Assembly (NCBI GenBank): GCA_947034885.2
Contig: OZ019759.1
Location: forward strand, 1,180,501-1,244,500
Source of the DNA: Thuidium tamariscinum
Lineage: Eukaryota; Streptophyta; Bryopsida; Hypnales; Thuidiaceae
Reading direction: 5' to 3'
Length of the DNA: 64,000 bases
Shown: positions 1-35,116 of the stretch, one piece after another
Numbering within the stretch: position 1 is the first letter of the stretch
How the letters are laid out: every line of letters starts with the position of its first letter
Notes under the pieces: generated by a model
Seen by the model: only the letters and a program-made list of their open reading frames with translations
Database searches by the model: none
What the model was told of the DNA's origin: nothing
Translations under genes and position numbers: made by a program

Positions 1-24
1 GTGGGAAGAGAATTCGGATCTGAC

Positions 25-45
25 TTATCCTTGAGTCGAGGATAA
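25..45. repeat. 21-bp palindrome in exon
   Basis: One-mismatch copy of the element palindrome, within the last visible coding part of the ParB/methyltransferase gene. Read on minus it encodes Y-P-R-L-K-D-K, matching Y-P-R-V-E-D-N at the same place in the element 2 copy. Confidence 0.8.
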
Positions 46-1166
46 TCCTGGACAGAAGGAACTGAGGCTTCTTGACCAAAAGCCTCAGAATCGCACCTTG
101 GATGAAGAAGATCGTCATGTATCTGTTGTGATGCAGAAGCGCCTTGAGCCTGTAAAAGTTTTTCCTTCAGAATTCGGTTCTCGTTGATTAAGGCTTCTCT
201 TTCAATCCTTGCCTTCTCTAGCCTCTCAACCTCCTCAGCTTTCTTCTTCGCCTTCTTCTCGTCACGTGCCTTCCAAAAGTCTCTATTCTCTGCTTTCACT
301 ACCACAACATTAGTGGCGGTAGTGCTTGGAGAATGCCCAAAAGTTCTTCCATCAGGTGGGCCGGATTCCGTTGTGGGTTTTTTGAACTCCTTGACACTAG
401 AGATGGCAGCATCATCCGCTGTGGGCTTCTCGAACTCCTTGGCACCAGAGGTAGCAGCATCATCCAAATCTGGTCCATCAAAATTGAAGCCCGCAAGGTC
501 AAAATACAAATCCCCATCGCTAAGGTCAATAACGCCCCTGCTTCTCTCGTCCTCTTCTTCTTCTTCTTCATCTGCGGGACCTTTTCCTTTCTCCGCGCGT
601 TGGAGATCTACCTCGGACTGCTCTTCATCTGCGAGTTCTTTTCCTTTCTCCACGCGTTGGAGATCTGCCTCGGACTGGTCTTCTGCACCCGAGAGTGACG
701 CAGGATTGCGCGTACAAACAGCAAAGTCCGCAGCAGTGATGGCAAGATCACCACTGCAGACAACAGCTGCATTTGACCCAAATTCGTCGATGGGAATGCC
801 CGCTTGCCCATGAGATTGGATCGGTGGAACCTCTTTGGTATCTGCATTTTCGTCTTCTTCTGATGAAGGAGACGAATTGGAATTCAACTCTGGAGAAGGC
901 AACATTCGTGGACGGATGTAACTTGCTTGGTAAGGCGAGTTGTCGTGAAGAAAGTCGTTCACGTCCGCCTTCTCGCCTCACTTGACCACCTGCAGAAGTT
1001 GGTCCCTCTTGTGTCGATCCGCAACGCTGTAGCAGAACATCCCACACATCTACAAAATCAAAAGAACCTAATTAGTTCACTGCATTTTCATGGGAAGCAT
1101 AGTGACTCTTCGATGCCGTGCCATGACATTATATTACGATTTTAGGGAAAGAGACAAGAGAAGAAG

Positions 1167-1187
1167 TTATCTTCGACTCGAGGATAA
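1167..1187. repeat. 21-bp palindrome in intron 2
   Basis: Full copy of the motif: half-site TTATCYTCGA, one central base, inverted half-site. It lies in the intron 1213-1050 of the ParB/methyltransferase gene. The element 2 copy has the motif in the same intron at 25587-25607. Confidence 0.9.
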
Positions 1188-2608
1188 GTGAATGGTAGAT
1201 CTAAACCCCTTACCTTAGCAGCAAGAAGAAACTTTGAATCACCGTATACACTGAGGACATTCTCCCCCTTCGCGGCAAGGTTCTGAAGCAGGTCAATATA
1301 GAACTCCATCCTCAACTCGCTCTGATGGGTTCTATACTTTGCCTCGGTGTTGAACCAAATCCCCGTGTAGAAAATAGAATTTGATGTATCGTACACTTTC
1401 TTGACAGTTTTGTACTCTGCAGGAGCCCCTTCTTCTCCTTTGCAAATAAGGAAGAGTAGTTGCACGGGAGGTGTGACTGCCCAAGCGCTCGCGTTGTTCA
1501 TTCTTTCGGCCTTACATTGAATGTAGGTCGAAACTTTGAAGTCATACTGCTTCAGGTGTCTTTGTGCATATCCTTTGGCTTCTTCGGCTTCAAACGCATT
1601 TCCGGGGATCCACAACCACACTTCCGGACCTGTTAGCGTTGGCCTCATGTGAACCGAGAGAAACTTCAGTAGTGGCAACAATGGTGCCGTTTCCCCGTTT
1701 CCTGCGGTTGGCCTTGGAAGCTGGCGGAAGTCTATGATTCCAAATGGCAGACCTCTTTTGAGGTATGGCCATGTGTGGCTCGTAACGAATGCTTGGGGAT
1801 AGCACTCGTGCCCACGAATATAAACTTCTCCATCACTTGGGTCGACATTGTTCTTCATGCTTAAGAACCTCTTAAGCAAAGGATAAGCCGTAGGATATGG
1901 CTTCTCTTGATAGTCGATGGCTCTCTTCTTCTTTCCTTCGTTCGTTAGCCGCTTCACAAAGAAGTTGTTGGGCAGACTGTTCAGTAGAAAGTCCCACGAA
2001 GCTGAAGTGAACAAATGTTTTGACTTCCAAGCCCTCCACACTTCGTCCACTACATCTCCTTCAGCATCCTTAAATTTCAAGGACGCGTCGATGGCCATGA
2101 ATTCTTCGATGATGACCTTCTTCCGCTTCCGGCGCTCCACCCAGTCAGCATGGGAAACATTGTCTTCACAGAGAAACTTTGTTTTCCCAATTGAAACTTT
2201 TGGATATGCCCTGGAATGGCCGGCTGTTTGTCCAAGCAAATGGACCACGTACTCCTGCAGGTCCTTATCCGTAAAATGGCCCATGTGCTTGAAAAATTCT
2301 CTTTTCAGCTCGAAATTTTTCAAGCTAAATTTCTTGTCTTTACGATATGCATCCCCAGTGCATGGGTCTATCAGTAACCCCTCCATGTGACGGGTAAGAA
2401 AGTCCTCCCACATCTTATAGATACTGTCGCTTAACGTCACCACCCGGAGTTCGTTCTTCAAATCAGATTCTTTCTTCACGTTGCTTCCATCTTTCTCCGG
2501 GTTAATGCTCTGATAACGGTACAAGACAACATCCACAAATTTCTGCAAAAGAGAAACATTGCTCTGTCAGGTTATATCCTTGCAGAACAGAATGGCACTG
2601 CTTAAGAT

Positions 2609-2720
2609 TTATCTTCGGGTCGAGGATAAATTTGCGGAATGAAAATGAACTGAAGACCCTCAGGGATTGCATACTATCTAAGAAGACCCTATGTCAAGTT
2701 TATCTTCGAGTCGAAGATAA
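2609..2720. repeat. Two 21-bp palindromes in intron 1
   Basis: Copies at 2609-2629 and 2700-2720 lie in the intron 2740-2543. Element 2 also has two copies in the equivalent intron (27027-27047 and 27106-27126). Confidence 0.9.
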
Positions 2721-4205
2721 AAGGAAGATGAATTCCTTACCCAATAAGCATCAATGTTGAAGCTGGATCTATTCTTCCTTCTGTTTGGCTCAAACTCCAC
2801 AGCGGTGGGTCGTTTCGCGCTAAGCCAAATTCCTCGACAAGCAAAGATTTGGTTCCCCCATGTTGGTTGGCTATGTCGGAGATGATTGGTCTTGTTGTAC
2901 CAACTGGATATCTCCGTCAATTTCTCTGCGCTCAGCGTCCAAACAATCGTAGCCTCCCATGTTTGGAGTTCTTTTTTCCGTTCCTCACATACACCACCGA
3001 GCTGCAATTGCTTAGAAGCAGTGATGTTGTGTTGACCATTGATGATAAAGAAGTTTCCTTTCTTTTTCTCATCCCAGCTTTGAGGGCGTTTAGGCAACAG
3101 CCTTTTCTGAGCGTCGACTGGAGTCAAACACACCTTCTGATGCTGCCTAGCATCGCCAAGATTGATTAGCTGCTCTTTCATGTCATTCACAATCTTGGTT
3201 TCCAGCTTCCGGATCACAAACTTCGGTCTTGCCAAAAAACACTGGTCGATAGAAACCATGAAGGTCTGCGGGTCGAAAATAAAACAATCTTTACATTTCT
3301 CCCAGAAGTTCTTCTGATATGAGCCCGCAATTTCGAATTTCTTCACAGGTACATCATTTGCGTGGTGACCTGTCTGTACAGTTGTTAATGCAGACCCGGA
3401 GCTCCCTGCTGCCGTAGCCCTACTAGGGGCGGAAATCTTTTGTCGCTTACCACTGCCTTCACCAATTCCGGGGGCAGTTAGTTTTCGTTTCTGGGCTTGG
3501 ACTCGGGTTGATCCTCTGCCACTTCCCCTGCTCCCGGATGTACCTCTCCCAGCCGAAACAGGTTCTGATGTTGGCTGAGCTTCGTTACTTCTCTGCTCTG
3601 CTCCATGCCCAGATTGAACTCGTCTTTGGACACTGATCATCGCATGCTTCTCCAGTCTTCGAAAAAGCATGTTCATCCTCCTTGCTTGGGAGGATGCATC
3701 ATTCTTCACCCATGGATGAAATTTGGTATTCAGCTCTGCTGCCAGGGCTTGATTGCTTCCTTCGAGAGAGAGAGGATGAGCTCGTCCAGATTAAACACAG
3801 CGGTTTCGTCACCCACGTAGACGACGATGGAGTGAGTGTGCTTGGATTCCTCACCATTGTCATTCATAGCCTGAAGCGTAATGACAACAAACTCATCTTG
3901 GTGGTGCTCAATCAATACCACTTTCTCGTTAAGGTTCCATGGAACATACATGTTGGAGCCCTTCACCTTATAACGCAGATATACATAATCCTTGAATCTA
4001 TTTGTACTGAACGTCCACGAAAGCACGACGGGCTTGAATTGCCATAGTGTCCCGTAAAGCTCTTCCATATCCGTAATAAAGGATCCTTCTCCGATCCACA
4101 TATTGAAGGGCTCCAGAAATGGTCTTGTTGCTGAGTAGTCGTAGTTATCATCCCGATCCATCTTGATTGATCTGCTCTGGCAAGCGATTTATCTCTGTTT
4201 AGTTT

Positions 4206-4331
4206 TTATCTGCGACTCGAGGATAAACATGGAGTTCTCGTTTTTTCTATGACAGGGCTGTGAATACTAATATTAGTTTTACTGTCATAACTATTTGTGG
4301 ATTGGTTTTATTATCTTCGATTCGAAGATAG
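4206..4331. repeat. Two 21-bp palindromes just upstream of the ParB/methyltransferase ATG
   Basis: Copies at 4206-4226 and 4311-4331 lie 45 and 150 bp upstream of the ATG at 4161 on the minus strand, in the probable promoter or 5' leader. Confidence 0.85.
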
Positions 4332-4578
4332 TTTTTATGTGTTCAGTTCAGAGGAGTATGTGAGTAAATCAGAGTGAATCGGGATACTGTATTGAAGGAA
4401 GCATGGTTCTTTTTTTCAGTTCTTTTTTATTGAGGTGTGATTTTGTTCTTCTTTCGTGTAAGAGAGAGAACCTCTTTATTCGTTATTTTTATGACGGAGC
4501 GGATTTTTACAAATATATGGAGTATATCTATGCAATCTTTAGTGGTTCACTGTCTACTTGATCTTTTGAGGCCATGTG

Positions 4579-4641
4579 TTATCTTCGCGTCGAGGATAAT
4601 TATCTTCGAAGCGAGGATAGTTATCTTCGATGCGAGGATAA
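4579..4641. repeat. Three abutting 21-bp palindromes
   Basis: Copies at 4579-4599, 4600-4620 and 4621-4641 stand head to tail with no base between them. Each keeps TTATCTTCG at the left and GAGGATA at the right but differs in the central three to four bases. Confidence 0.9.
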
Positions 4642-4680
4642 ATACCTCGCACGGATGATACTTCTTCTTATAATGTGAGT

Positions 4681-4744
4681 ATGTATTTGAGATTCGAGGA
4701 TACGGGCATTGGGTTTCGAGCAATTATCTTCGCAGCGAAGATAA
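4681..4744. repeat. Degenerate and full 21-bp palindromes
   Basis: A weak copy at about 4681-4701 is followed by a good copy at 4724-4744. They complete the cluster of seven upstream of the ParB/methyltransferase gene of element 1. Confidence 0.75.
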
Positions 4745-5159
4745 CTTCCTTCGATTTGTAGCAAACAAGTCATGTACCAGAAGACCAAAACCCTAATTTT
4801 ACTAGCTTTGAATCAAACCTACAGTGAAGGGAAATCACATGTGGTACCTATCACTCCCTGCGTTTGCTTGTTTTCTTGCTAGGCGTTGTTTCCCAGCTGC
4901 TTATTCTGTAATAAGCACTCCAAACACAGTTGTGAGAACTTGAACATGTTATTTGTGTCTACTTTGTTCAAAGAACAAGACTGTAGAATGGAAAGAATGC
5001 ATACAACTTCTCTAAACCCTAAATCAAGTTGTTCACTTCGATAAAACGTCCAAGAGTGAAGAATGGAAAGATTGCACTAAACTACTCTGCATCTGAAAGG
5101 AGAGGGAAACTGAAGAATTCAAGAGCATCTTCTTGTTCAACAATTTGTGCATTCTAGAA

Positions 5160-5620
5160 ATGCAAAACTGAAAACAAAAAACAAAAACAAGACAGCATGA
5201 GGGTTTCAATGTACCTTAATCCAGACACACCGTCAACAAGAAGGACGTTGCCGCAATAGTCGCGCTACCACCTCCACACGCGCTTGACCGCACACAAACG
5301 TGCGCCAATCCTCACTTCTGATGAAGGAGATTCAACTGCGCCGCTCCTCCAAGAACACCACGACGCCACAACGAGGAGATCACAAAAGCAAGATGAAGAG
5401 GAGAACACAACAGCAAGATACGAAGACGCAACAAATGGAGTACGAGCCGAAGACACAACAAATGCCGAGGACGACGAGGAAACACAAGACACGGGAGACC
5501 CGCCCCCCAAACCCTAAACCCCGACAATAAGGTCGCCCCATGACCGTGGTGTTCACGAGACTTATGTGGCGCAGCTGGATTTACCTCGGGGTAAACACTG
5601 ACATTTTTTATTTTTTCCAA
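5160..5620 (-). promoter_or_regulatory. Probable promoter or 5' leader of the ParB/methyltransferase gene, element 1
   Basis: A GC-richer island in otherwise AT-rich spacer, about 1.1 kb upstream of the ATG. Short open frames exist on both strands (for example 5284-5517 on plus), but they are low in complexity and have no paralogue in element 2, so I do not call them genes. A possible splice donor AAG-GTACAT occurs on the minus strand near 5213, which would make this a non-coding first exon. Element 2 has a similar island at 29240-29940. Confidence 0.35.
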
Positions 5621-8600
5621 ATTCTGAATTCATATTTGGATTCAGAGACCCCAAATTAGATAATGTAGGTCTTGACACAACCCAAAAACCCAAGAAAACA
5701 TAAACCCCAAAACCATTATCAACCCCTGGTAAAACAATTAATTTGTAAAATGAACGATTGTGGAAAAGAATGAAATCTAGAATTCATTTATATAAATTCT
5801 ATAATTAGACATTTTAAAAGGTCACAAGTTAGTTGGGATTTAGAATGTTTAGCCCCGTAACCTCATTTTTTTGGGCAACAAATTCTTTAATATGACTCGC
5901 CCTAAAAGATAGGAAGACTTCACAGTCATCACTTTTCTGGTTTTAGGGTTCTCATGGTCAAATTTTCTATTCTTTCACTGCATCAATGATGCTGTTAGAG
6001 GTTTTTTTCCCATACATTCTCTAACATGTCGAATTTGAATTTGAACAATTATAATTCCAAAAAATTGATAAAACTAACCAACAAGTTGGCATTTTGTTTA
6101 ATTGAAAGCAAATTTGAAGAAGCTCAAAGCAAGACTTCAACATTTAAGGAGCAACAACTAAATAAACTTTATATGTGATTTTTCTTTCCATCATTTTTCA
6201 AATATGAATAGTTACTTATATGTGACATTTTTTTAACTTCCATCTTAGTATAAGCCATTTCTAGTTTTAGGATTTTACTTGTGATATTAAAGTACCTATA
6301 CAATGGAATAATCAGACCTGAATAGGCTATTGTTTTAGTTCAAAGAGTTTTCTGTCTATTATTACTGTGAATGAAATGTTTTAATATATTTTTAAATTAG
6401 GCTAAGTATGTTTTTTGGATGCAAGTTGAGTTCAAATTGAGTTTTATACATAGGTTTTTGCCTTGAGTTTTCTTTTGTTGTTACTAAGAATGATTTACTT
6501 TCAATTCTTATTCATTTTCCTTTACCTACATTACTTTTAGCTTTTTTGGATAATTCAATCCCGAATTCTTGTGTTACTATAGTAAGTTGTTTTCCCTTCT
6601 CACAATGTTTTTTGATTGGTTTAGTCACTTTATTCAAAGTGAAATTTTTGTTTATTCTTCGCAAGCTCCTTAAACCTAACTTTGAAAAAACATGTCTATC
6701 AATTAAATTTGATATTGACAAGTTGAATTTCTTTAATTTTTAGGAAATCCGTACCCAATATTTAGTACTAACTCACTTTTGGAGTTTAAAGAATTCAAAG
6801 CATAATATGTAGGAAAAAATGAACTTTGAATTTCAGAGGATTTCTATGTTTCAGAATTGAGTTCAAAGTCTAGGAAAAAAATTTCAAAAAGAAAATGCTT
6901 GATTTTGAAACCCTAAAATAATGAAGTGAAGGTATATCCCAGATTGAACCTAAATTGAAATCATTAATAGCTCTAAGATGGAATTCAAACACAATAATCC
7001 CAATGGTAGGGTTTAGCTAGCAAGAAAATTTAAAACCTAAACAAAAAACTGAATTTAAGCTTAATTTCTCAAAACTACACCTTTTGGGAGATTTCAAATG
7101 TCTTCTGAAAAAGAACTTTTTTTACCTTGAAATTTTTTACACATTCTAAAAACATGGATATTGTTTCATGAAAAAAATTTCATGGCAAAAGAAAAAAAAC
7201 TCAATCCTTAGGAAGGTGTCAAAGTTGAAAGTAGTGAAATGTTTCTCACCACTACCCATGTTGGTAGATTTTGAATAACTTCTTTTTTGCGAATTTTTTG
7301 GCCTTGAAATTTAGCATACATATAATTAACTTAAAGATGATGCTGTGGTAACAATTTTGTGGTAAAATAACAATTTTTGAGCTCTCGGGAGGCTTTCAAA
7401 GTTGGCAGTGCTGAAATTTTCCTCACTGCGGATTCGAAAACGACATTTTGATTGGTACCCCACTGTACATCAATCACTAAAAATACATTCAAATTTTCAA
7501 ATTGTTTACGTGACAAGAAAAATTTCTTACGAAATGTGGAAAAGATATTGATACAATTAAGAAAATATTGCCTACAATGTTGTGTTTCTAAAAGCATCGA
7601 GAGAAATATCATCTAAGACAAGAACCATTACTTGAGCTACTACTTCAAGAAGATAAATTTGAAGAAACTTGGAATAGACCTCTTAGGGCATCATAAAATC
7701 ATCTACAATGAAGAAAGAGGTGAAATTTAATTTAATTCAAAGCTTAATAAATTTCATACTCTTCTTGTTTTATATAAGGCATTTTGAATCTAAACTCTAG
7801 GTTGTAAGGCCTCTTCTTGTACCTCAAATATTTTTGATGAAATATTTAGAGAATCTAAAAAGAAAAATTCCTATACATGTATGATAGAGCAAAATAAAAA
7901 CTCTAATGAAAAATAAAAGACTTTAAGTGGCAACTTTGGGAATAAAGAGTCAAACTTTCCAATCGCAAGGAAGAACTTTAATTCTTGAATTAAAAGATAT
8001 ATAAACCAACAAATCTAAAATGCAATATATACTTCATAAAAATAGTGATATTTTAAGGAACAAGTTCCTAAAAGAATGTAGTCATTTTCAATAAGTCATC
8101 TATTTTCATCTATAATCCATTTAATTTGACTATCCAACATCACATTCACCATTATTTTAGTCAACAATAACAATAAAATGTCATAAAGGCTTAAGGATGT
8201 TCACTTACTTGCACAAAAATAGACAAATAGGATCCTTGATTACATCGAGTTCTATGAACATTGTTCCATCTTCTTTTGGCATTGCAAAAGTAAAAGGACA
8301 AGATATGAATTTTGAATCAAATCTATTAGATTGTTGCCACTATGATTTGACTCATAAACCTACAACATCAAGAATAAATTGAAAGGTCTCACAAATAGAA
8401 AAAAACCTAAAATATTAAAGTAAAATTCAACAAAACAAAACAAAACAATGAGCCCTATTGATCATATGATTATCTTGTTGGAAAGACAATGTATTGATTT
8501 AAGCAAAAATAAGTGAATGTGCATTTGATGCTCTCTTATGTATACAAAATTTTAAGTACCAATTCTTTTAATAATCATAATGATAAATTTACTAAAATGA

Positions 8601-8900
8601 ATCAAGCCAATGATGAGGATATGAAATTTAAACTAAATTTGATGCCAATAGCAATTGACATCTACAATTTTGGTTCAAGGACAGAAAATGCTTAATTTCT
8701 TGTTTAGGCTCACAAAAAATTTAAAGCACTTTGCATTTTACTCTTACACCATGCAAAGAAGACAAAATATGTAAACAATATTCATAATTCATCTATAAAT
8801 TTGTGTTCAATCAAAGGGCAAGATAAGGAAGAAGAAGAAATCATTCCTAAACTTACACCAAATTCTTGTCTAATTAAAAGTATAAAAAAGCAAACCCTCC
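5621..8900. other. AT-rich spacer of element 1
   Basis: About 3.3 kb of A/T-rich sequence with only short shadow open frames. I see no gene, tandem array or 21-bp palindrome in it. Confidence 0.6.
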
Positions 8901-9284
8901 ATTGTCCATATAATAAAAAAATTCCTATGTGGAAGCCAGAATCCTAGAGGTAGGTGTCGTCAAATCTGCCAAAATGGCTCACATGTCCAACGACATTGGT
9001 GAGCTGTGGAATAATTTGACTTTAACAAAAGTGGCTTCAATGAATGGTTTATACATGACGTGGAAATTCACTTGGAATGTTTTGAATTCCAAATGTAGCA
9101 GACCATTGTACATAATTTTTCAGCCCACAAGAAATGGCGACTGCCATAAATATGAAAAAGTAAGATTCCCCGATGTGTATGACGGAATGTCCAGCAATTT
9201 GTTGGCTGCCTTAGAAAGTTCTAAAAAGGTATTCGGTAATTGCGGTTTAGGTCCATTTCGAGAGCGTGTGGAATGTCAAAGTCC

Positions 9285-9420
9285 GCGATCGCAGGAGGTA
9301 CTTCTCCCCTGATTCCGAGAAAAAGTGAAAATTTTGAATCCCGTTACACTTCCCGCTGATTTGATCCCGCCATTTCATTTCTATTGTCTCTCCCCCCGGG
9401 AGCAAGTCTCTCTCTTTTTT
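9285..9420 (+). promoter_or_regulatory. Conserved upstream block of the DUF7869 gene, element 1
   Basis: A block beginning near ACTTCTCCCCTGATTCCGA and followed by TTCCCGCT is shared with 33500-33600 of element 2. In both copies it lies 1.4 to 1.7 kb upstream of the DUF7869 start codon. It probably contains the promoter. A 5'-UTR intron is implied because a splice acceptor (AG at 10670-10671) sits one base before the ATG. Confidence 0.45.
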
Positions 9421-9872
9421 CCTTTGCTCAGTACCTGTTCAGGACATTGTTCGACTGCCGTGGCGCCGCCTTCTCATTTTTTGGAGCAGATTGTTTCATT
9501 TTGAGTTGAAGTGTTTGCTTATACACAGCTCAGTTTCATTTGCATGCTCGTAAGTTTAGTGAGTTCTTGTATTCTTTGCTGCAGTTCATGTTTTGCGAAA
9601 GTGCTGTCACTGATTTCTAGTACTCATGCTTTGATTGCGTCGTAGTATAGGTTGATGGTTTTGTTGTCGCTGATTTCCAGCACTCATGCTGTGGTTGCAT
9701 CGTAGTATGGGTTGATGGTTTTCTTTAATGTTACGAATTTCTATGAGTCCGGTATTAGTGTTCCAATTTCTCTTAGTTCGTCGATGATGCTGTGTGTTGT
9801 GTTTGCGGAAGACAGGGCATCGCGCTTTTTACGCCGTGAAATGCGGAAGTATGTTATAACAGGGCTAGTCCA

Positions 9873-10146
9873 TTATCCTCGTATCGAAGATAAATGTCGG
9901 AGTTTCGTGGTCTCCATAATAATGTGTATAGAATCCTCAATCTGAGAGTACTATGAAATTTATCTTCGAATCGAAGATAAATATAAACGACTGTACCCTC
10001 GATTCTAAGATAAATATAAACGACCGCATAGAATGCTCAATCTAAGAGTACTCTGATCTTTATCTTCAAATAGAAGATAAATATAAATGATCGTATCCTA
10101 GATTATAAGACAAATATGAACTACCGTATCCTCGAATCGAGGATAA
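9873..10146. repeat. Cluster of 21-bp palindromes upstream of the DUF7869 gene
   Basis: Good copies at 9873-9893, 9960-9980 and 10126-10146. Decayed copies at about 9993-10013, 10060-10080 and 10092-10112. The decayed ones lie in a short local duplication (ATAAATATAAACGAC and similar). Confidence 0.85.
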
Positions 10147-10401
10147 GTTGACCCTTTAATGATGTGAAGGTCAAATTACATTACAATCTTCACAGTATAA
10201 ATTACAACGGAATGTCTGAAGAAAATAATTTCTCTTACACTTATTGTTTGATTTGTTTCTGATCGAAGAGCTACCCTTCTTTGATTCTAATGGTAAATCC
10301 TTCGTAATCAGGAATAAAAAAACTGAAAATATTCACTTAAAGTACTTGATATAAACCTTCAACAAATATCATCAAAATTTTATGAGAATGAAGCACATCA
10401 T

Positions 10402-10633
10402 TTATCTTCGTGTCGAAGATATGTATTGCATTGTAAACTCATATAAGAGAAAAGAAATAAAAGAGTTATACCACTATTATGGATTCTCAAGGTCTTCTCA
10501 GTTTAAGAATTCATGAGGAAGATGCACTTCTTAGTTTCGTCATGTAGTTCACATTACTTTAAGTACTGCGTTAAAGATATTTTGTAACTTGCCTGAAATT
10601 ACTATAATCATTTTATCTTCGAGTCGAGGATAT
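10402..10633. repeat. Two 21-bp palindromes before the DUF7869 start
   Basis: Copies at 10402-10422 and 10613-10633. The second is 40 bp upstream of the ATG, inside the inferred 5'-UTR intron. Element 2 has its last copy at 35096-35116, 37 bp upstream of its ATG. Confidence 0.85.
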
Positions 10634-10672
10634 TTTGTTGTCTTAGACTAATGTAGTATCATTCTGTGCAGA

Positions 10673-14114: not shown

Positions 14115-14141
14115 TTTTCCCAATTTAATGAATATGGCCTT
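14115..14141. repeat. Right TIR of element 1
   Basis: Differs at one of 27 positions from the right TIR of element 2. It ends GAATATGGCCTT. The sequence beyond it has no similarity to the right flank of element 2, which fixes the element boundary. Confidence 0.9.
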
Positions 14142-14154
14142 ATATAAAGAATCT

Positions 14155-22398: not shown

Positions 22399-22433
22399 CT
22401 GAAGGAAAGAATAAGGCAAAGAAGTGTATCACA

Positions 22434-22454
22434 TTATCCTCGGCCCAAGGATAA
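22434..22454. repeat. 21-bp palindrome between FCP1-like and Ser-rich exons
   Basis: Copy with a GGCCC-type centre. Its placement in a probable intron matches the intron positions of other copies. Confidence 0.75.
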
Positions 22455-22589
22455 CCAAACAAACGAACCTCACATTGCAGCATATCATAATAGAAGGCCA
22501 GCACTTGGAATCACAAATCAAAACTTTCATATATTACAAATGAATAACATTTACAATTCTGTTCGCATTCTCCTAATGTACAGCAATAT

Positions 22590-23621: not shown

Positions 23622-24198
23622 CTGGACAACAAATATAACAAATCAGTTCATAATGAAAGACTTGAATTTAATCTGTGATTTTTTATTTCAAAATAATTCA
23701 TGATACATACGGTAGCATTCCTATATATCTCAGTACTGTACAATTGCGAACTACTATCGGTGCTACATTCTCATCTATACTACAAGGGACGAATTTGTAT
23801 GGAAGTCTTGTTGACGCCATTCATTCATTGACTCTCCAATCCCTCCTGTCAATAGGACGATTTGGTATAAGAGTCTCTAAAAATGAAACCGACAATTGAA
23901 TGCAATCCAAAGAAAAGCAGTGACTGCATAATATGAACTGACTCATGACAGTTTATAGGGGTCAGACTTCAGCGGTGACTGTACCTGTCCAAACGCCAGC
24001 ACGTCTGCTTTGTCCTCGAAATCCTGCCCATAATCCACGAGCTCGTTGTCGTCGTCGTCGGGGGGATTCTGAGATTCAATCAATAACGATTGATTCTGTG
24101 CAGGGCTCTGAGAGCGGATGCCCTCCGCTATCCGTGCCTGCTCAGTAGGTTCAGGAACTGCCTCCGACTTCAGTTCCTCAAGAACGCATTCCTTGCTG

Positions 24199-24399
24199 GT
24201 ATCCTCGACTCGAGGATAATTCACAGCAACAAATGATCCACCCGGTTCACCCTCGGGGACATGATTGACTACCCTCATGTCAGTGTCAAGTCCATCTATT
24301 GGAAGGGAGAGGTCATCGGTCTCGTCTGAAAAATTAGGATGACGCTCATTCACCGGAGGAAGAGAAGTTGAGCCATGATTATCCTCGACTCGAGGATAA
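24199..24399. repeat. Two 21-bp palindromes inside an exon
   Basis: Copies at 24199-24219 and 24379-24399 are translated on minus as N-Y-P-R-V-E-D and D-Y-P-R-V-E-D-N. The second has a counterpart at 25-45 in element 1. Confidence 0.9.
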
Positions 24400-25586
24400 T
24401 CTTGCACTAGGGGGGGTGACGCCTACCGACTAGAGGCTTCAGAGTGATCTCCCACAACGACGTCAAGGCGATTCTCTTGCAACACCGAAGGAGCTTGAGA
24501 CATGGAAGCTGAGAGCTTCGCTTTCAAAATGCGGTTTTCCTCCAACAGCGCCTCTTTTTCTAGGCGCTCCTTCTCTCTCCTCTAGGCCTCTTCTTCCCTT
24601 TTCTTTGCCTTCTTCTCGTCCCGTTGTCTCCAGAAGTCCCTAGACTCGGTCTTCACTACCACGACAGGTGCCACTGTAGACTTCGGAGATGACACAACAG
24701 ATTGAGGCTGGCCAGGATTCGAGTCTTCTGTATTCTCCCCCGCCACTGTAGGATTAGAGGTGCAGGCATCGTCTATGACAAGGGCGTCATAGTTCAAATC
24801 CGCTAAGTCAGTATACGAATCTCCGTCACTGAGGTCTATGACCTCATGGTCTGGATTTTCTATTCTATCCGTGTTGGGATGTTCATCTCCAACATTCTCA
24901 ACTGCAATCAGGATTACCTCTACTCCGTAATCTTTTGGATCCTGCCCTCGCTCCATCACTCCCTCAACGCACTGCTCAGTAGCCCCCCTTGCTTGAACCT
25001 GTACTTCGGGCACGTCTTCCATTCCGGGCTCTTCTTCCATCTACTCCTCCCGTGGACTCTCTTCGGACTCCTCGTGCTCTGGAAAGGTGGAGGCATGCTC
25101 TCGGAGCACGATTTCGAAGTCGTCGACAGTCACCACTAGGTCATTGCTTCGGACAATGTCTGTGTTGGTTTCGAATTCGTCAATCCCGAGATCCGATTGT
25201 GCCTCCCTCATTGAATTCTCTGCTTCCTCCATCGCTACCATTGTGTCATCTTCCTGCGATGGAGAAGAGTTGGAGCCCAGCTCCGGAGTGCCTAGTAGAG
25301 GTGGCTGGATATAATTTGCTTGATATGGTGAGTTGTCATGGAGAAAGTCGTTTATGTCTGATTTGTCCCCGTGCTTCACCATATCAAGTAGTTTATTTCT
25401 TGCGTGCCTGTCTACTATGCTGTAACAATAGACACCGTGCAACTGCAATATCATCAACACCAATATCAGACATGTGAGAAAGTGAAATTTCATTTAACTA
25501 TCCAGTTAAGGCGAACAACGACGGTTTTGTAATGAGGCATAGTTGTAGACAAGACTAGAATGGTGCCCAGTTAATTATCGATGTGA

Positions 25587-25607
25587 TTATCTTCGACTCG
25601 AAGATAA
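25587..25607. repeat. 21-bp palindrome in intron 2 of the element 2 gene
   Basis: Perfect palindromic copy in the intron 25632-25443, equivalent to 1167-1187 in element 1. Confidence 0.9.
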
Positions 25608-27026
25608 ATGTATAACAATTGCTAGAGATTACCTTGGTAGCTAGCAGAAACTTTGACCCTGAGTACACGTTGAGCACGTTCTCTCCCTTGACAACAAACG
25701 TTTGAAGCATGTCCACGTAAAACTCCATCCGGAGCTCGCTCTGATGCACTCTGAGCTTTGCCTCAGTGTTGAACCGGATGCCTATGTAGAATGTGCACTC
25801 CGAAGTACTGTACACCTTTTTTATGGATTTGCTCTCTTCCGGCACACCATGCTTTCCGTTATGAAGGAGGAACAGAAGTGTTACAGGTGTAACAACAACT
25901 CGACTAGAGCTGTTGATTTGCTTGACCTTACACGGAATGTAGGTCGACGTCTTCACAACATACTGCTTCAGATGCCTCTCGGCATAAGCAGTTGCTTCCT
26001 TTGCTTTAAAGGAATCCCCGGTAATCCAAAGCCACACCTCCGGACCGATAAGGGATGGTCTCATGTGATGGGCGAGGAAATTCAACAACGGAAGTAGAGG
26101 GGTTGCGCTTCCGGATCCTACAGCTGGTCTTGGGAGTTGCCGAAAATCTATGATCCCAAATCCTAGACCTCTCTTGAGGTACGACCAAACTTGCGTCATC
26201 ACGAATGCTTGAGGATAGCATTCATGTCTGCGGATGTACACCTCCCCTTCTGCTTTCTCGACCTTGCGCTTCATTACAAGAAATTGTTTCAGCAACGGGT
26301 AAATCGTTGGAAACGCGATGTCCTTGTAGTCGACTGGGCGCTTCTTCTTGCCTTCGTTGGTCAGCCGCTTCACGAAGAAGGAGATAGGCAATGCGTTAAG
26401 GAGGAAATCCCTAGTTGCCAATGTGAAGAAGTTCTTCTGCTTCCATACCCTCCACTCTGCACCCTTGACATCGCCCTCTATGTCTTTGAACTTCAAGGTG
26501 AGGTCTATTGCCATAAATTCTTCAATGAGGACTTTCTTCCGCTTGCGGCGCTCAACCCAATCAACGTGGTTGACATTGTCTTCACAGACAAATTTTGTTT
26601 TCTTCACTGAGACTTTTGGGTAGTCTCTTGTGTGCCCCACCATTCTTCCCAGCAAATGGAGCACGTATTCGTGAAGATCTTTGTCCGTGAAGTGCCCCAT
26701 ATGTTTGAAGAACTCCCTCTTCAGTTCGTGGGACTGAAGTGTAAATTTATCCGTGCTCCGGTAAAGCTTGCGCGTGCATGGGTCAATCAGCGACCCCTCC
26801 ATGTGTTGCGTGATAAACTCCTCCCACAATTTGTAGTCACTCTCATTCAAAGTGATGATACGGAGCTCGTTCTTCAGGTCCGATTCTTTCTTCACGTTAC
26901 TGCCATCCTTCTCTGGATTGATGCTCTGATATCGGTAGAGAACAGCGTTGACGAACCTCTGCAGCGTCAATGGAAATTAAATTTTTATTTAAAGACAATC
27001 TGAGAAGAGGATGAATCGCAAGAGCA

Positions 27027-27126
27027 TTATCTTCGACCCGAGGATAACTACCAAGGAAGAAACGAATGCAACCAAACTAAACTCTAATTTTATCAAGCTC
27101 ATACATTATCTTCGACCCGAGGATAA
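27027..27126. repeat. Two 21-bp palindromes in intron 1 of the element 2 gene
   Basis: Copies at 27027-27047 and 27106-27126 are identical to each other, with centre GACCCGA. Confidence 0.9.
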
Positions 27127-28625
27127 TCAAAGTATGTACTACTTACCCAGTAAGCATCCTTGTCACATTTCGATCCGTTGTTCCTCTTCTTTGGCTCGGA
27201 CTCAAGGGCTATTGGTCGCTTTGCAGCGACCCAGATCTGTCTACAAGAGAAAATCTGGTTGCCCCAGGTTGGCTAACTATGTCGGAGATGATTCGTTTTG
27301 TTATACCAATTTGATATCTCTGTCAACTTCTCAGGGCTCAACGACCACACTATCGTCGCGTTCCAGGTCTGCAGCTCCAGCTTCCGCTTCTCACAGCCGC
27401 CGCCGCCGCTTTGTAGTTGCTTCGCGATAGTGATACTGTGTTGCCCATTGATAATATAGAACTTCCTGTTCTTTATTTCTTCCCATGTCTGCGAGGCCGC
27501 GGGTAGCAAACGCTTCTTCGCATCCATTGGGGTCAGACATATTGTTTGGCGTTGTCTGATGTCCCCGAGGTTCACGAGCTGCTGCTTCACGTCTGCTACA
27601 ATCGTTGACTCAAGTTTCCTTATAACGTACTTGGGTTTTGCTAGGAAGCATTGGGATATGGACACTTCAAACGTCTGGGGGTCGAATATGAAGCAATCTT
27701 TACATCTGTCCTAGAAATCCTGTTGATAAGAAGCAGCAATCTCGAACTTCTTTAGCGGTTGTGCATCGCCTATCTTCCCAGTCTGCACAGTTGTTAGTGC
27801 GGAGCCAGAACTACCAGCTGCCGTAGGCCGGCTAGCCGCGCTTCCTCTTGGCCACTTTCCAGTACCCTCACTACTTGCGGGAGCCGTCGGTTTTCTCTTA
27901 GGCGCCTGTGCTCTTCCCGAGCCCCGTCCACTGCCTCTACTTCCGGATGCCCCTTAGCTAGTCGAGACTAGCTGAGTTGATGGCTGCGGCCCTGTTTTTT
28001 TCTGGCCTCCTGCACGCACCGAAGGATTGGGTTTCTCTACATTCTGCATTGCGTGCTTCTCCAACTTTCGAAAAATCAGGTTCATTCTTCGGGCCATTGA
28101 GCCTGCATCATTGCGTACCCACGGATTGAACTAGGTGCTTATCTCATCTGCCAAGGCTTCTTTGCAGGCTTCCTGGAGTGACCTGATTAACTCCTCAAGG
28201 TCAAAAACTACTCTCTCGTCTCCTTCAAATAAGACGAGTGAGTGGGTATGTCTTGTTTCTTCGCCTTTGTCGTCCAGAGCCTGTAGAGTAACTACCATGT
28301 ATTGCTTCTGATGGTGTTCAATCAGGGCAACCTTCTCTTTCATATTCCATGTTACGTACATCCCTGTACCCTTTACTTTGTAGCGGAGAAAGACATAGTC
28401 TTTAAATCGATTGACTCCGAAGGTCCACGAGTCTATGACAGACTTGATCTGCCAGAGTGTACCATAGAGAGCCTCCAATTCTGTGATAAAGGGCTCTGGT
28501 CCTGGTCATAAGGTCAAGGACTCTATGAAGGGCTTGTTCGCAGAATAATCATAAGTGTCGTCTGCAGCCATCTTCTTCAGATCTGCATGCGTAGATGATT
28601 ACGTTAGTAAGCATGTCAAGGTTAC

Positions 28626-29030
28626 TTATCCTCGACCCAAGGATAATTGAACTCTCTTATGTGTATCCATGTATGTTACGAGGTGTCCAGAATGTCTAAA
28701 GTTTCTCTACTTCTGTAGTGTTTAGACTGTTATCCTCGGGTCGAAGATAAATGTGTAACCTATGATCTTGTGTAGGAGGTTCACTTTAAGTAATGGCTTC
28801 ATTTTTCATTTTTAGACCACTGTATAATTGTAAACGCGCTCTCGTCTGGGAGTAGTCTAAATGTTTTAATATGTTAGTTTTTTACTGTACGTAGAGTTTC
28901 TGTTTATTTTTTTCTAATCCAGTTATTTAAGACTTTCAAATGCTGTTTATCTTCGACCCGAGGATAGGTATACTTAACCAAAGGTTATTTATCTTCGGGT
29001 CGAAGATAACTACTCTCGGGTCGAAGACGA
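28626..29030. repeat. Cluster of 21-bp palindromes upstream of the element 2 ParB/methyltransferase gene
   Basis: Copies at 28626-28646, 28730-28750, 28947-28967 and 28989-29009. A decayed fifth directly abuts the last one (29010-29030). The distance from the ATG at 28571 parallels the cluster at 4206-4744 in element 1. Confidence 0.88.
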
Positions 29031-29239
29031 GCTCCGCTTGGACTACATGACACTGATAATATGCGAAAACCCTAATTTCACTGTCAATGGTCTTTGAATT
29101 CTAATTTATTGTCATTGAGAAGCTCAATAACAAGTTTGAGAAGCTACACTGGAAGTACCGGCATTTGTTTCAACAACACAGCATTCAGAGTCAATGAAAT
29201 CTCACTCTGAATTGTTGTTACAACAGAATTTAACCCTAA

Positions 29240-29940
29240 ACCCTATTCCTGTAAGAGGAAAGGGAACCGATTAGGAGCATCCTGCAAGCACATACGCATT
29301 GCAATTCGGGAGACAAGCGCAAAGAACTTGCCAGCAATAGAGGAAATAATTGCAAATTTCAGATTCTGAGAAGGTGTACTTGGGCGATTGAAAATGGATG
29401 AGACCTGATGTGTAAGTTGATGGGTTTCTAAAACCCTGACCTGAAATCTCTCACGACCACTACTGCCTGCAGATGGAAATCTCTCACGACTACTACTGCC
29501 TGTAGATCGTAAACCTTGGCCCCTGAACACATAGAGGAGGACGAGATCTCCCAAAAACAAAAAACGACGACAAGCGCAGGCAAGAAACGATTTCACAAAC
29601 TCGCATTCGCACTCCCACTCCAATCTCGTACTCTCTCCCACGAACTTCCACAACCTCGTACTCTCTCCATAGAATTCGAAGATCAAAAGCGCCCACTCCC
29701 TAAATCCCAACTCACTAAGAGTGCACAACAATGAAACCACACAGCAAAACAAAGCCCTATTTACAAACACATGAAAATCAAAACAACAGCGTCGAAGACC
29801 ATCTCGAAGAGCGCGCCAAACGGAATGGCACTCCGTCTCACGAGGAAGGAGATGACCTCCCGACCCCGCACCCAAACCTAACTGCTAGGTTCGGTCACCT
29901 CCAAACCGGAGCTAGGTAACCGAACCTAGTGGGCAGTAGG
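29240..29940 (-). promoter_or_regulatory. Probable promoter or 5' leader of the element 2 ParB/methyltransferase gene
   Basis: A GC-richer island with long overlapping frames on both strands, none resembling a known protein. The minus-strand frame 29875-29243 ends near CAG-GTCAGG, a possible donor. Its position matches the island at 5160-5620 in element 1. It is best read as promoter and untranslated first exon. Confidence 0.35.
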
Positions 29941-31520
29941 CAGGGTCGAAGTACAATTGAACCTGTACCTTGATGCATATAATTTGAATTTATTTTGTTT
30001 TCAAAGAAAAATATTCCATGAATCTAACACAAGTTGTTTCATATTTTTTGAAGCACTACTAAATTGATTATGAATTTCCAAACGCGGTCTAGCATAGGGC
30101 CCTATTTGTGGAGGCCTCACAAACTCATACATGCATAGTTTGTAAATAAATCTGCCTTTGTTCAAGATTTAGCATTGCAATATGGAAAAAGTAATCAAGG
30201 TGGTTTTTAAATGTGTTCCTTCAATCCTAAATACTTGAATTAATCATTATTTAATTCTGATTTTGTAACACTTATAAGAAGGGGGTTCAACAACCAAGTC
30301 TTATATTATTCACTTAGTTTAGAATGAAGGCACTGTGGCTCTGAAACCATCCTTTGAAGAAGGAAAAAACAAAGTAATTATCATTAATCTTATCATGCTC
30401 CAATGTAATTGGAAATTCATTTATCCACAATGAAGTTCCATTTCACAGATTCTTACTAGATTTATTTACACGTTCTAAAGATATTAAAGTTTTTTTTATC
30501 CCATCTACTTTTATTAATTTTTCCACAATCATTATTTTTGGATAAGGATGTTCACAATAAACACAAAATTATTTTATATTCAAAGTTTTTGTGCATTAGT
30601 TCATAGCAATATATGGTTCAGGGTCGGCAAGTAGTAGCAATTTGGCTAATTGATTTCAGAATGTATGAATGAAATAGTAAAGTATATGAAGTGGTTTAGG
30701 GTAGAAAGAGACAGAGATTGACAGAGATTGACAGACTGGGTAGGAGAAAACATCCTTGGCAACAAAACCATCCACTTTAAGAGTACTTAAAAAAAAATTA
30801 CCGTTCTACATGCATTTCTTACGGACTGTAGACAACCAAGCATACAATGTCTAGGAATCATTTTTAGCCATACGTATAGGAAATTTTATTAGTAATTATA
30901 TTGAATTTTAAACAGTGAGCTAGCATATTGGAATATCGGTGTATGAGAATGTCATACATTTATCTTTAAGCATTTGAAATAATGGGAGAATTAAGGAATT
31001 TTGGAAATTTAGCTTTTATGGTCTTTAAAATAATCTTACTTAGAAAAGTTTTCAATGAGTAAGAAAAATGGCAATTTTCCATGGTTATCGTCATAAAGAA
31101 GTAACCTTGGGCTTATAGGAATTAAGCCTTTCAAGAATTTAGGGGCCTTTGTTGGATTTTGATGTTTTTAAAAAGCAAACGTGATGAATTTTTTTATCTT
31201 AATATTAGTTTTTTTTATAAATACATACAATTATTGCTTTGAATAGAACATACATTTCATGGACTACAAAAGAATAGTTACAAGAGGATGTCTAGGTTAA
31301 TATTGTCTATCAATAGAGATAAGGAAGGGAAAGAAGAAGATTGTAGAATTGAAATCTCTTGCACTAGAATCTAAAATCAAATTATAAGAGAAATCCCCAA
31401 CTTGAGGAAGGACTAGGATACAGAAAATGTTTTTATCATTTTTTTGAGTAAATGAACTTTGCATTTGCAAAGTCATAGTTGAAAAAACTTTGTTTCTAAT
31501 TTTGAAAAGACTCCTTGAAA
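29941..31520. other. AT-rich spacer of element 2
   Basis: No gene or clear repeat family seen, apart from short A/T runs and a small GACAGAGATT direct repeat near 30710-30735. Confidence 0.5.
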
Positions 31521-31529
31521 GAGAACAGT

Positions 31530-32180
31530 ATGGAAAAAAATAGGGAGTATAATTCGAAAATGCCAATGAAACATTGAAAAAAAATAGGAAAAAAAAATGG
31601 GGGGTATAATTAGAAAAGGCCAATGATACATTGAGAAAAGAAATAGGGGAAAAAAATAGGGAATATAATTAGAAAATGCCAATGAAACCTTAAAAAAAAA
31701 TAGGAAAAAAAATGGGGGGTATAATTAGAAAAGGCCAATGATACTTTGAGAAAAAAAATAGGGGAAAAAATAGGGAGTACAATTAGAAAATGCCAATGAA
31801 ACCTTCAAAAAAAAGTAGGAAAAAAAAATGGGAGGTATAATTAGAAAAGGCCAATGATACTTTTCAAAAGAAATAGGGGGAAAAAATAGGGAATATAATT
31901 AGAAAATGCCAATGAAACCTTGAAAAAAAAATGGGGGGTATAATTAGAAAAGGCCAATGATACTTTGAGAAAAGAAATAGGGGAAGAAAAGGGGAGTATA
32001 GTTAGAAAATGCCAATGACACTTTCAAGAAAAAAATAGAAAAATAAATGGGGAGTATAATTAGTAACTGGTAGAGATACCTGAAAAAAAACAATAGACAA
32101 AAAAAATGGGGGGCATAATTAGAAAATGCCAATGACACCTGAAACAAAACAATAAAAAAAACATGGAGGTTTAATAGAAA
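31530..32180. repeat. Tandem array, about 60-bp unit in alternating pairs
   Basis: About eleven units, each with GGGGAGTATAATTAGAAAA followed by a GCCAATGA segment and an A-rich run. Two variants alternate (AAAATGCC and AAAAGGCC), giving a dimer of about 115-120 bp. It is present only in element 2. The minus-strand open frames here are this repeat read as S-L-A-F-S-N-Y-T-P. Confidence 0.95.
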
Positions 32181-33480
32181 TTCATAAACAAAATCTAAAA
32201 ACCAGCAGTCACCATTTTTAAAATCTAGAATAGATGTCAACATAGTGGAGAAAGGAAAGATTAGCTAAAATCCAAATTACATTAGTTAAAAGATGAATTA
32301 CATTACATTAGAAGCCGAATGCCATTGGAGGGTGTCAACCAAGAGAACGAAATTTGAACTTGTAGGTTTACTTCTAAATAACCTTTGTAAATCCAAGGCA
32401 CCTCTTGAAAGCTAGGAAATTCTCTGAAGTTTCTACAAAATTCCGTAGTTTTTGATTTGTAGAAGAGTGTACATCGAAATCATAATTGAAGCCAATAATT
32501 GAAGTCAATAACTAATAAAAATTCTTGCATCACATTCATATGAAATAAAAGATAGAGATTAAAAAAGAATTTAAAAATATACAATAAAGATAAGATAATG
32601 GATGATTGTTAAAATTCAGATAGAACCTATCTCTAATTGAAAATTGAAGAACGATTTAAACCACATTTGTTAAATATGTAGTATAGTAAACATACACTAA
32701 AAGTGAACTAGTAGTAGACATTTACGAATAAAAAAGATTTTCTATCACACTTGGTTTTGTAGTGTTTGCGACAATGAAGTGAAATTTATTTACTTCTGAA
32801 GTTCCTAGGGTTTAGGGAATTAAAATATATTTTTTTCTTTATTTTGACTATGGCACTACCGAATTGTAGTAAGTCTTAAATGATGCAAGTGGATTGGCCC
32901 CATCGCTTGGCTTTACCATGTTTTACCAGAGGTGTAATGAAAACAAAAAATACCCTAGTTTGGGCCGAAATCACCCCTACTTCCTTCACCCCCAAGCTAA
33001 TATGCAATGTCTGATCACAAAAATGAATTCAAAATTTGGCAAAAAAAATGTGTGTAGAAAATAAAAAATTTCAGCATTTTACTTGATTGGCCGAGCGATA
33101 TCTCATATCCTTCACAGAAAGTTTCTATTAATATTCACGAGCCCTATAAACTAGAGACTTGATCTCATAATTGGGCCTCAAAATTACACGCTGCCACATG
33201 CATGAACCATTGCCCGATTATAGTTTAGAAAATCGAATCACAGGTATAGATAAAATGCAGAACGTGACAATTCAAGAGAATGACTTATTCCAAATCCAAA
33301 AGTGCACTCATCATGAAATCCACGAAGCGCAAAAAATGGCGGCTGGAGAGAAGGCCGTAAAGTAAAATTCCCCTACCTAATTATAAGTCCACAACGTCAG
33401 TGACTTGAATGATTCCACCCCAAAGAATAAAAAGTCGTCGCGTATTTAGAGATAATACCATTTACAGGTTTGAAAGAATG
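32181..33480. other. AT-rich spacer of element 2, right half
   Basis: No gene supported. A short frame at 33171-33365 has no counterpart at the same place in element 1. Confidence 0.5.
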
Positions 33481-33489
33481 TCAGAAGCC

Positions 33490-33620
33490 CACAAACCCAG
33501 GAGATACTTCTCCCCTAATTCCGAAATAGCTTGACTTTTTGAAATGTTGTTACCTTTCCCGCTCGTTTGTTCCCGCTTTCTTGTTTGGGTCGTCTCTCCC
33601 CTGACCAGCACATTCGCTTC
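33490..33620 (+). promoter_or_regulatory. Conserved upstream block of the DUF7869 gene, element 2
   Basis: Shares ACTTCTCCCCTAATTCCGA and the following TTCCCGCT stretches with 9285-9420. It is the best candidate for the promoter of the forward gene. Confidence 0.45.
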
Positions 33621-34101
33621 ATTTTTTCAAACACTTGCCGCCTCGCGTTGCTCCGACGCCTCCGCCTAGTTTTGCATTGCGATTTCTTTCGGTTTTGGCG
33701 AACGTTTTAACATCTCCACAGCTTCGTTGCATTCGCATTCTTGTACGTTGAAGTAGCTCTTGTTTGCATTGTTGCATTCCACGATTTTGATTTGATGCCC
33801 TCATTGTTTTTCTAGTGCGTATGTTCTGTTGTAATTTACGATCTTCACTCAATGCACTCACTGATTTGCATTGCGTATACTTCTGGTTTGTCGTAGCGCA
33901 AGAGAATCAATGGTTTTAATCAATGATAACAATTTCAATGAGTTTGCAATCGGCGTGAGTCGTTGACAAAAGGGAGTAGTCTTCCTGCTTGATGAGAGTG
34001 TCGGACATAGTACCAGCGATAATTACGCCGTAAATCTCGGGCGTTGTACTTGAGCAGTGTCATTAAGTAGTTCCTTCCTGAAGTAGGAGTAAGCCCAGAA
34101 T

Positions 34102-34905
34102 TTATCTTCGACTCAAGGATAAAGAAGCTGCAGACTATCTCCGATTTCAAATTAACAAAAATACTTATAAACATTACCACCAAGACTAAGATTATTACAC
34201 CGAAAGAAGTGATTAATGAAGTAGTGGTTTGCATTTAATATGCCTCCAACAAAAATATATCTTCAATTCGAAGATAATTTTAACATTTCTACTTGACCTA
34301 GTAAGTATGTGAATATAACTACCAATGTGAAGGCTAACATCTTGTTGAATTTCATGAAAATCGTTAACTTGGAGTGTTGCAGCTTCTCTACCTTTGACTC
34401 GAAGATAGTTGGAGATTATCAATTGAGTTCAAGATAGTCAAAACTTAAATAAACCTAATATATCAATCAACAAAGCCTTACATTTTTGTACTATGCAAGA
34501 CAATTTCAACTTTTGATGAAGTTAGAAATTCGTTTGGTAGATAGTATCTTTGGTCTTATATGACTAGACTGATATTGTCCTAGTCGATCATAAGTATTTC
34601 ATCTTCGAGTCGAAGATAAAATGGAGAGCTTTTCTGACCCATTGATCAGCCATCAAGAACAATCAAATAGAGGCCACATAAGAAGAATTTTGAGTGCCCG
34701 AACAAAGGATTTCATTACAGGATATGCAAATGTTCGTCCCTTAGAAAATATCCTTCTCTTGTTCAATGGTATTTAAAAAACTACTACTAGGAAATATTTG
34801 TCTTAGAAATAGTTAGTGTCCTCATCATCTTTGTTCGATTTTAATCATTAATGCCTGGATTGCATAATGAGTTCATCTTCATTGTCATCCTCGAGTCGAA
34901 GATAG
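34102..34905. repeat. Cluster of 21-bp palindromes upstream of the element 2 DUF7869 gene
   Basis: Copies at 34102-34122, 34257-34277, 34388-34408 (weak), 34599-34619 and 34885-34905. They lie in the inferred 5'-UTR intron or leader. Confidence 0.85.
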
Positions 34906-35095
34906 TAGTGGATCTTCAGTTTGATCAATGTGTGATTCATGGAATTACGGAAGTCACTGTAATTACTGAAGTCGAATGTACTTCTGTGATAATGTCTTTA
35001 AATAATTTCCTGTGTCGCAGGTAGTTCTTCTTTGTAGGCAACATCTCTCAGAATGAAGTGTCCATCTGTTGGTATCCTTGTATAACACAAATATG

Positions 35096-35116
35096 TTATC
35101 CTCGAGTCGAGGATGT
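35096..35116. repeat. 21-bp palindrome next to the DUF7869 start
   Basis: Copy 37 bp before the ATG at 35153, matching 10613-10633 in element 1 (40 bp before the ATG). Confidence 0.88.

Follow-up and report, generated by a model that had tools for sequence, protein, structure and literature searches.

The parS sites of ParB proteins are palindromic and occur in several copies, and the binding motifs of the TnpA protein of CACTA transposons are repeated and lie subterminally at both ends. In the VANC/VANDAL system of Arabidopsis, the VANC21 motif YAGTATTAY is 9 bases long, its arrays run in a single orientation, and the text does not call it palindromic (PMC5735166). DndB, a protein with an [ND]GQH motif (DGQHR), recognises palindromes of the form TACG-N10-CGTA in the promoter of its own gene, which it regulates (PMC4507180). 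Here we describe a family of 21-bp palindromes in a 64,000-nucleotide stretch of the moss Thuidium tamariscinum (contig OZ019759.1, positions 1,180,501 to 1,244,500; the window in what follows), where they are found in two transposons, E1 and E2, each carrying two divergent genes, gene 1 and a DUF7869 gene. As judged from sequence, the palindromes are most likely symmetric, family-specific candidate sites for an element-encoded dimer that would serve as an autoregulator or an anti-silencer.

The initial annotation of the window had noted about 30 palindromes with the half-site TTATCYTCGA, confined to the two elements, and both statements hold. With up to 3 mismatches allowed, TTATCYTCGANTCGARGATAA is matched 32 times in the window, first at 25-45 and last at 35096-35116, and not once in 100 dinucleotide shuffles of it. 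E1 (window 1-14141) contains 17 of the sites and E2 (20960-38628) the other 15. The rest of the window (14142-20959 and 38629-64000) holds none at this cut-off; there, 6 mismatches must be allowed before two matches appear, at 39662 and 48508, both at chance level. The sites are as follows:

25..45, in the 3' part of E1 gene 1, 1 mismatch
1167..1187, in E1 intron 2, 0 mismatches
2609..2629, in E1 intron 1, 1 mismatch
2700..2720, in E1 intron 1, 0 mismatches
4206..4226, upstream of E1 gene 1, 1 mismatch
4311..4331, upstream of E1 gene 1, 1 mismatch
4579..4641, E1 array of three palindromes without gaps, starting exactly 21 bp apart (4579, 4600, 4621), 1, 2 and 1 mismatches
4724..4744, upstream of E1 gene 1, 2 mismatches
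9873..9893, upstream of the E1 DUF7869 gene, 1 mismatch
9960..9980, upstream of the E1 DUF7869 gene, 0 mismatches
9993..10013, upstream of the E1 DUF7869 gene, 3 mismatches
10060..10080, upstream of the E1 DUF7869 gene, 2 mismatches
10126..10146, upstream of the E1 DUF7869 gene, 1 mismatch
10402..10422, upstream of the E1 DUF7869 gene, 2 mismatches
10613..10633, about 40 bp before the E1 DUF7869 start, 1 mismatch
22434..22454, in the 3' part of E2 gene 1, 3 mismatches
24199..24219, in the 3' part of E2 gene 1, 1 mismatch
24379..24399, in the 3' part of E2 gene 1, 0 mismatches
25587..25607, in E2 intron 2, 0 mismatches
27027..27047, in E2 intron 1, 1 mismatch
27106..27126, in E2 intron 1, 1 mismatch
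28626..28646, upstream of E2 gene 1, 2 mismatches
28730..28750, upstream of E2 gene 1, 1 mismatch
28947..28967, upstream of E2 gene 1, 42 bp ahead of the next, 2 mismatches
28989..29009, upstream of E2 gene 1, 1 mismatch
34102..34122, upstream of the E2 DUF7869 gene, 1 mismatch
34257..34277, upstream of the E2 DUF7869 gene, 2 mismatches
34599..34619, upstream of the E2 DUF7869 gene, 1 mismatch
34885..34905, upstream of the E2 DUF7869 gene, 2 mismatches
35096..35116, about 40 bp before the E2 DUF7869 start, 2 mismatches

A lone perfect half-site, TTATCCTCGA, lies outside the elements at 60345, and a few half-sites with one mismatch are also found outside them.

The sites had been said to concentrate upstream of both divergent genes. 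Many of them do lie there, but others occupy the introns and the 3' part of gene 1, with two per element in intron 1, at least one in intron 2 and three in the 3' part (two of the three 3'-part sites of E1 fall left of the window). Intron 1 holds two sites in all 11 elements read, the first about 15-20 bp past the donor. Between five clades the intron-1 sites are 85.0% identical, while the remaining intron is 39.2% and the exon 66.5% identical. Upstream of gene 1 the palindromes form abutting arrays, with 3 units in E1, 5 in element EA and 6 in element ED. Exact 21-bp spacing, which corresponds to two helical turns, is seen in 19 of the 106 neighbour spacings of up to 130 bp.

A scan of the host genome (363 Mb, 19 contigs) retrieved 2057 sites at up to 2 mismatches versus 28 for the reversed pattern, and the motif is rare outside elements, in line with the initial annotation. 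Of 20 stretches fetched, 18 had been chosen for listed sites, and 17 of these have gene-1 or DUF7869 matches. Further listed sites were covered by nine short stretches (L025-L033); every one carries extra sites, and six have element-protein matches. A looser pattern, TTATCNTCGANTCGANGATAA, is found 247 times (up to 3 mismatches) in the 290.2 kb made up of the window and stretches L001-L033, a density affected by the fact that most of these stretches were picked for containing a site; 60 control palindromes with scrambled halves gave a mean of 0.13 and a maximum of 3 matches in the same sequence. Position 1 of the half-site is loose, and in some families position 6 is loose too. A variant code, TTATCRTCGA (R-type), has 88 exact sites genome-wide, with 0 for its control. 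Among DUF7869 copies in the 63-74% range, the upstream regions of eight (of 48 listed matches) all bear TTATCN sites; one of them (L037) has a single site with 2 mismatches, and two of the eight regions are within 10 kb of sites seen before.

In a distant family of elements of this type, 21-bp palindromes of its own take the place of the TTATC site, a new observation that comes from ten upstream regions and one complete element (N). Its DUF7869 copies resemble Physcomitrium P0043, which is about 46% identical to the DUF7869 of E1 and E2. From 50 listed copies, the upstream regions of ten, each open-framed, were fetched, and none of the ten has a TTATC site. Other 21-bp palindromes are present in all ten. 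Counting those with no more than 1 mismatched pair and under 18 A/T gives 39 in total, where shuffles average 0.55 and reach at most 2; one of the 39, in L047, departs from the code type. The code is TTCAGCTCGA or ATCAGCTCGA in L043, L044 and L047, with TTTAGC variants, and TTTAGGTCGA in L045, L046 and L049-L052, with a variant centre in L048. The outer half-site letters are TTCAGC, TTTAGG or TTCAAG in this family. Most families have the inner TCGA-N-TCGA in common; their outer letters differ and are changed alike in both halves. The distant element N, whose code TTCAAGTMGA has 68 sites genome-wide (up to 1 mismatch; reversed control 0), carries 20 sites of its own code (looser pattern TTCAAGTNGNNNCNACTTGAA, up to 3 mismatches) and no TTATC site; the six E-type elements carry 15-31 TTATC sites each and none of N's code. 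Element N keeps the layout of the E type, with a gene 1 only about 34% identical to that of Ceratodon. The possibility that N has no gene 1, which would favour DUF7869 as the binder, was rejected, as gene 1 is present further left.

A trace of the palindrome can also be seen in proteins of other species. Gene-1 relatives from other genomes and metagenomes are 37-58% identical to relative P0121 over the matched stretch, and their protein models often run beyond the intron donor; some of the resulting tails include the translated palindrome (YPRVED, YPRLED and YRRLDD among others). A pattern for these peptides, composed after the tails had been looked at, has 12 matches in 11 of 121 gene-1 relatives and none in 120 DUF7869 proteins or in reversed sequences. 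Further tails show the palindrome in other frames and many show none; it is absent from 15 Ceratodon gene-1 proteins, as expected for spliced models. In the 12 matches, a sixth base that gives R is accompanied by a mirror base that gives D (3 of 3), and one that gives P or L by a mirror base that gives E (9 of 9). A hand calculation puts the chance of this 3-and-9 table at 1 in 220 when kinship of the sequences is ignored. Judged from these translated sequences, which are related, the position-6 pairing in the tails is compensatory; the evidence for covariation at this position comprises the 12 peptide matches and the fetched loci.

The elements that carry the sites have terminal inverted repeats (TIRs) and a target duplication of fixed length, as is typical of DDE/RNase-H DNA transposons. 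Their features in the window are:

1..14141, right 14.1 kb of E1, with TIRs at 14115-14141 and L018:6631
14115..14141, minus strand, right TIR of E1
20960..38628, E2, complete, with 27-bp TIRs AAGGCCATATTCATTAAATTGAGAAAA and target duplication CTTG (20956-20959 / 38629-38632)
20960..20986, plus strand, left TIR of E2
38602..38628, minus strand, right TIR of E2
21017..21051, conserved subterminal block of E2; its two half-sites lie 62 bp and 82 bp from the end on the gene-1 side

The left TIR of E1 lies 3370 bp left of the window (G000:C11:1177131), which gives a full length of 17511 bp; its two ends have no matching target duplication. A 4-bp duplication flanks six of the seven elements with both ends read, E1 being the exception: in addition to E2, it is perfect in EB (TGAG), EC (TATA), ED (CAAT), EF (ATAT) and N (GATG). 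Element length is 17.2-18.8 kb in the six of E type and 26.4 kb in N. A block around TTCAAAGATAAGTTGTTNAAGSCRAAGATAAA is conserved 60-95 bp from the TIR tip in eight gene-1-side ends, with half-sites 20 bp apart, the first of which always has CA where the palindrome carries CG. The first half-site has 1 mismatch and the second at most 2 in all eight gene-1-side ends read, several of them close relatives; in the outermost 260 bp of the six DUF7869-side ends, half-site matches have 2 mismatches or are lacking.

Several other repeats and gene remnants adjoin or lie within the elements. A 58-bp repeat that has dyads of its own (e.g. GTTAGATCGATATGATCTAAC) fills 14142-15744 with about 20 copies, between E1 and a hAT-like gene, as another repeated dyad family, and a 57-58-bp tandem array occupies 31466-32168 in the palindrome-free intergenic part of E2. 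Fragments of a hAT-type transposase (DUF659, Dimer_Tnp_hAT) are found between E1 and E2 at 16499-19609. A C-terminal P0043-type DUF7869 fragment (20634-20957, 63% identity) directly adjoins the left end of E2, which places this element in or beside an older relative. An N-terminal fragment of another P0043-type DUF7869 lies beside the left end of E1 (L018:5828-6620 and upstream), with decayed TTCAGCTCGA palindromes upstream of it.

The genes of the two elements are:

2741..4161, minus strand, E1 gene 1 exon 1 (PH-like and predicted ParB-fold part), in two frames with one frameshift
1214..2542, minus strand, E1 gene 1 exon 2
27135..28580, minus strand, E2 gene 1 exon 1, broken frame
25621..26967, minus strand, E2 gene 1 exon 2
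22806..23399, minus strand, 3' part of E2 gene 1, FCP1/NIF-like domain (tblastn with P0127, E 3.8e-19)
10673..13516, plus strand, E1 DUF7869 gene, one TAG and one TAA in frame
35153..37990, plus strand, E2 DUF7869 gene, five in-frame stops

DUF7869 is probably an RNase-H transposase. Gene 1 is predicted to have the ParB N-terminal (ParB/sulfiredoxin) fold, the fold having been predicted for relative P0121; Pfam and NCBIfam scans of gene-1 proteins gave no ParB match, and apart from NIF the Pfam matches were far under cut-off. The FCP1-like part of E2 matches PF03031 at E 3.8e-4, just below the curated cut-off, and P0127 at E 4.4e-12. GERRxR is the nucleotide motif of ParB; NGQHS stands in its place in most of the 136 gene-1 relatives searched. 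Sequence searches of solved structures gave nothing convincing, nor did viral contigs scanned exactly for TTATCTTCGANTCGAAGATAA and for P0001 relatives give any match. Ceratodon purpureus and Physcomitrium patens are the source of the named relatives of both genes; the majority are unnamed, and one (P0237), filed under an archaeal bin, was taken for contamination. Among the Ceratodon proteins P0127-P0141, many gene-1 relatives have VG or UG in their locus tags, which we take to denote the V and U sex chromosomes, and one source names three of the proteins FCP1 homology domain-containing.

Because the dyad is kept while its letters change by family, across promoters and introns alike, we infer a symmetric, element-encoded binder that co-evolves with its sites. 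The palindromes would be cis-acting sites of a dimeric DNA-binding protein from the transposon; selection would maintain both halves, and copies recur ahead of the two genes and within the gene-1 introns. The large gene-1 product, which combines PH-like, putative ParB/sulfiredoxin-fold, exon-2 and FCP1-like regions, is the leading candidate because of its predicted ParB fold, because DndB, with a similar motif, recognises palindromes in the promoter of its gene, and because the layout is like that of VANC. This protein may occupy many sites in the control regions of gene 1 itself and of the transposase, and so label the element as self and control its transcription. It would do so either by autoregulation or by shielding the region from host silencing, as VANC does on VANDAL; the site positions fit both modes. 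As families diverge, the outer half-site and the protein would change together, leaving each family with a private code. We consider this reading, with the gene-1 product as binder, to have a slightly better than even chance of being correct, and the interpretation first offered for the window, an element-encoded binder with the ParB-like protein as candidate, is partly supported. A further elaboration appears doubtful: a ParB-fold protein that binds nucleotides would load at the private palindromes, spread along the element and set the chromatin state in the manner of ParB-parS self-recognition, the half-site code diverging with the protein so that coexisting families stay orthogonal.

Several observations weigh against the main reading, with the gene-1 product as binder. 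At the place of the ParB nucleotide motif, NGQHS is found in 98 of 136 gene-1 relatives and NGQHR in one, and 30 have no match; exon 2, compared by sequence with solved structures, gave only one match, at E 0.81. The CpG observed/expected ratio is 0.24-0.81 in the elements and 0.60-0.71 in neighbouring sequence, and since the two are about alike, lasting protection from methylation is not indicated. Palindrome clusters in L028, L030 and L031 (1.5-2.5 kb) have no element protein match, and those of L028 and L030 mix C- and R-type palindromes. The 10-kb stretch L019 has a site and no element gene match. It is possibly a deletion derivative; its solitary exact palindrome lies 36 bp from a TIR-like sequence with 5 mismatches (L019:4632 and 4668). 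The inner TCGA part is not strict in N and L048, and the two halves do not always agree at position 6 in the 63% family (e.g. TTATCGTCGAGTCGAGGATAA in L036). Compensatory change between half-sites, raised by the initial annotation, is seen in the outer letters by family, with position 6 mixed in the 63% family. Finally, DUF7869 has a possible DNA-binding N-terminal part and, like gene 1, is present wherever both genes are readable, so that co-occurrence does not discriminate between them.

The main competitor is that the DUF7869 transposase binds the palindromes by its N-terminal region and represses or tunes both promoters, the TIRs being bound separately. The half-site-like pairs near the gene-1-side end also count against a gene-1 binder. 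The TIRs of E and N are alike at 19 of 27 positions while their codes differ, a mild argument against the end-binding region of the transposase; this alternative is possible, though clearly less probable than a gene-1 binder. TTATC is the GATA box in reverse, and the outer part TTATC/GATAA in the E families, together with the promoter and 5' intron placement, would suit a GATA- or MYB-like host transcription factor exploited by the element. A fixed host factor does not explain why a family of the same type and architecture has TTCAGC, TTTAGG or TTCAAG as outer letters, nor is it favoured by the rarity of sites outside elements, and we regard it as unlikely.

The consensus core comprises two CG sites, and some sites show CG to TG/CA changes, as if the palindromes were targets of silencing or methylation through their TCGA cores that do not serve the element. 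Their retention in element introns across large divergence and the unexceptional CpG content of the elements speak against such targets, which we rate just as low as a host factor. A role in splicing or RNA structure of introns and untranslated regions might account for the constant pair in intron 1 and its short distance from the donor. However, many more sites lie upstream of start codons than in introns, a dyad of 21 bp with a single central base makes a poor hairpin, and exact 21-bp arrays fit DNA phasing, which leaves this explanation very improbable.

In the open-licence literature, searched at the level of titles and abstract beginnings for part of the matches, no description of these sites was found; the same literature yielded no paper on DUF7869 and nothing related on a moss DNA transposon with ParB or on Ceratodon transposon superfamilies on sex chromosomes. 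The elements place a putative ParB-fold protein in a plant transposon, and their private codes suggest a way for coexisting families to stay separate. In this one genome, related proteins and palindromic codes form a natural series, with which the evolution of DNA-binding specificity, and the management of or escape from host control by transposons, can be tested directly.

Among the closest known systems, VANC/VANDAL offers this parallel: a short family-specific motif, dense in non-coding DNA including introns and upstream regions, with tandem-repeat expansion, a different motif per family and an encoded accessory protein (PMC5735166). The moss elements likewise have a family-specific motif that is dense in their non-coding DNA and rare elsewhere, and that is found in introns and upstream regions, in part as tandem arrays; they differ in having 21-bp dyads, a transposase of the DUF7869 family and an accessory protein with a predicted ParB fold. 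DndB differs in belonging to a bacterial dnd operon with two sites rather than dozens (PMC4507180), whereas the motif of gene 1 is NGQHS and its architecture is far larger. With the TnpA system of CACTA/Spm (see PMC2613891) the moss system would share an element protein with repeated short sites in the element. Half-sites with at most 1 mismatch occur subterminally at the gene-1 side only, and the moss sites lie mainly at promoters and in introns. ParB-parS and Noc (see PMC7053999, PMC8367383) resemble the moss system in palindromic sites present in several copies and in the ParB-fold domain, which is predicted for gene 1, but gene 1 does not keep the GERRxR-type motif and its host is a eukaryotic transposon.

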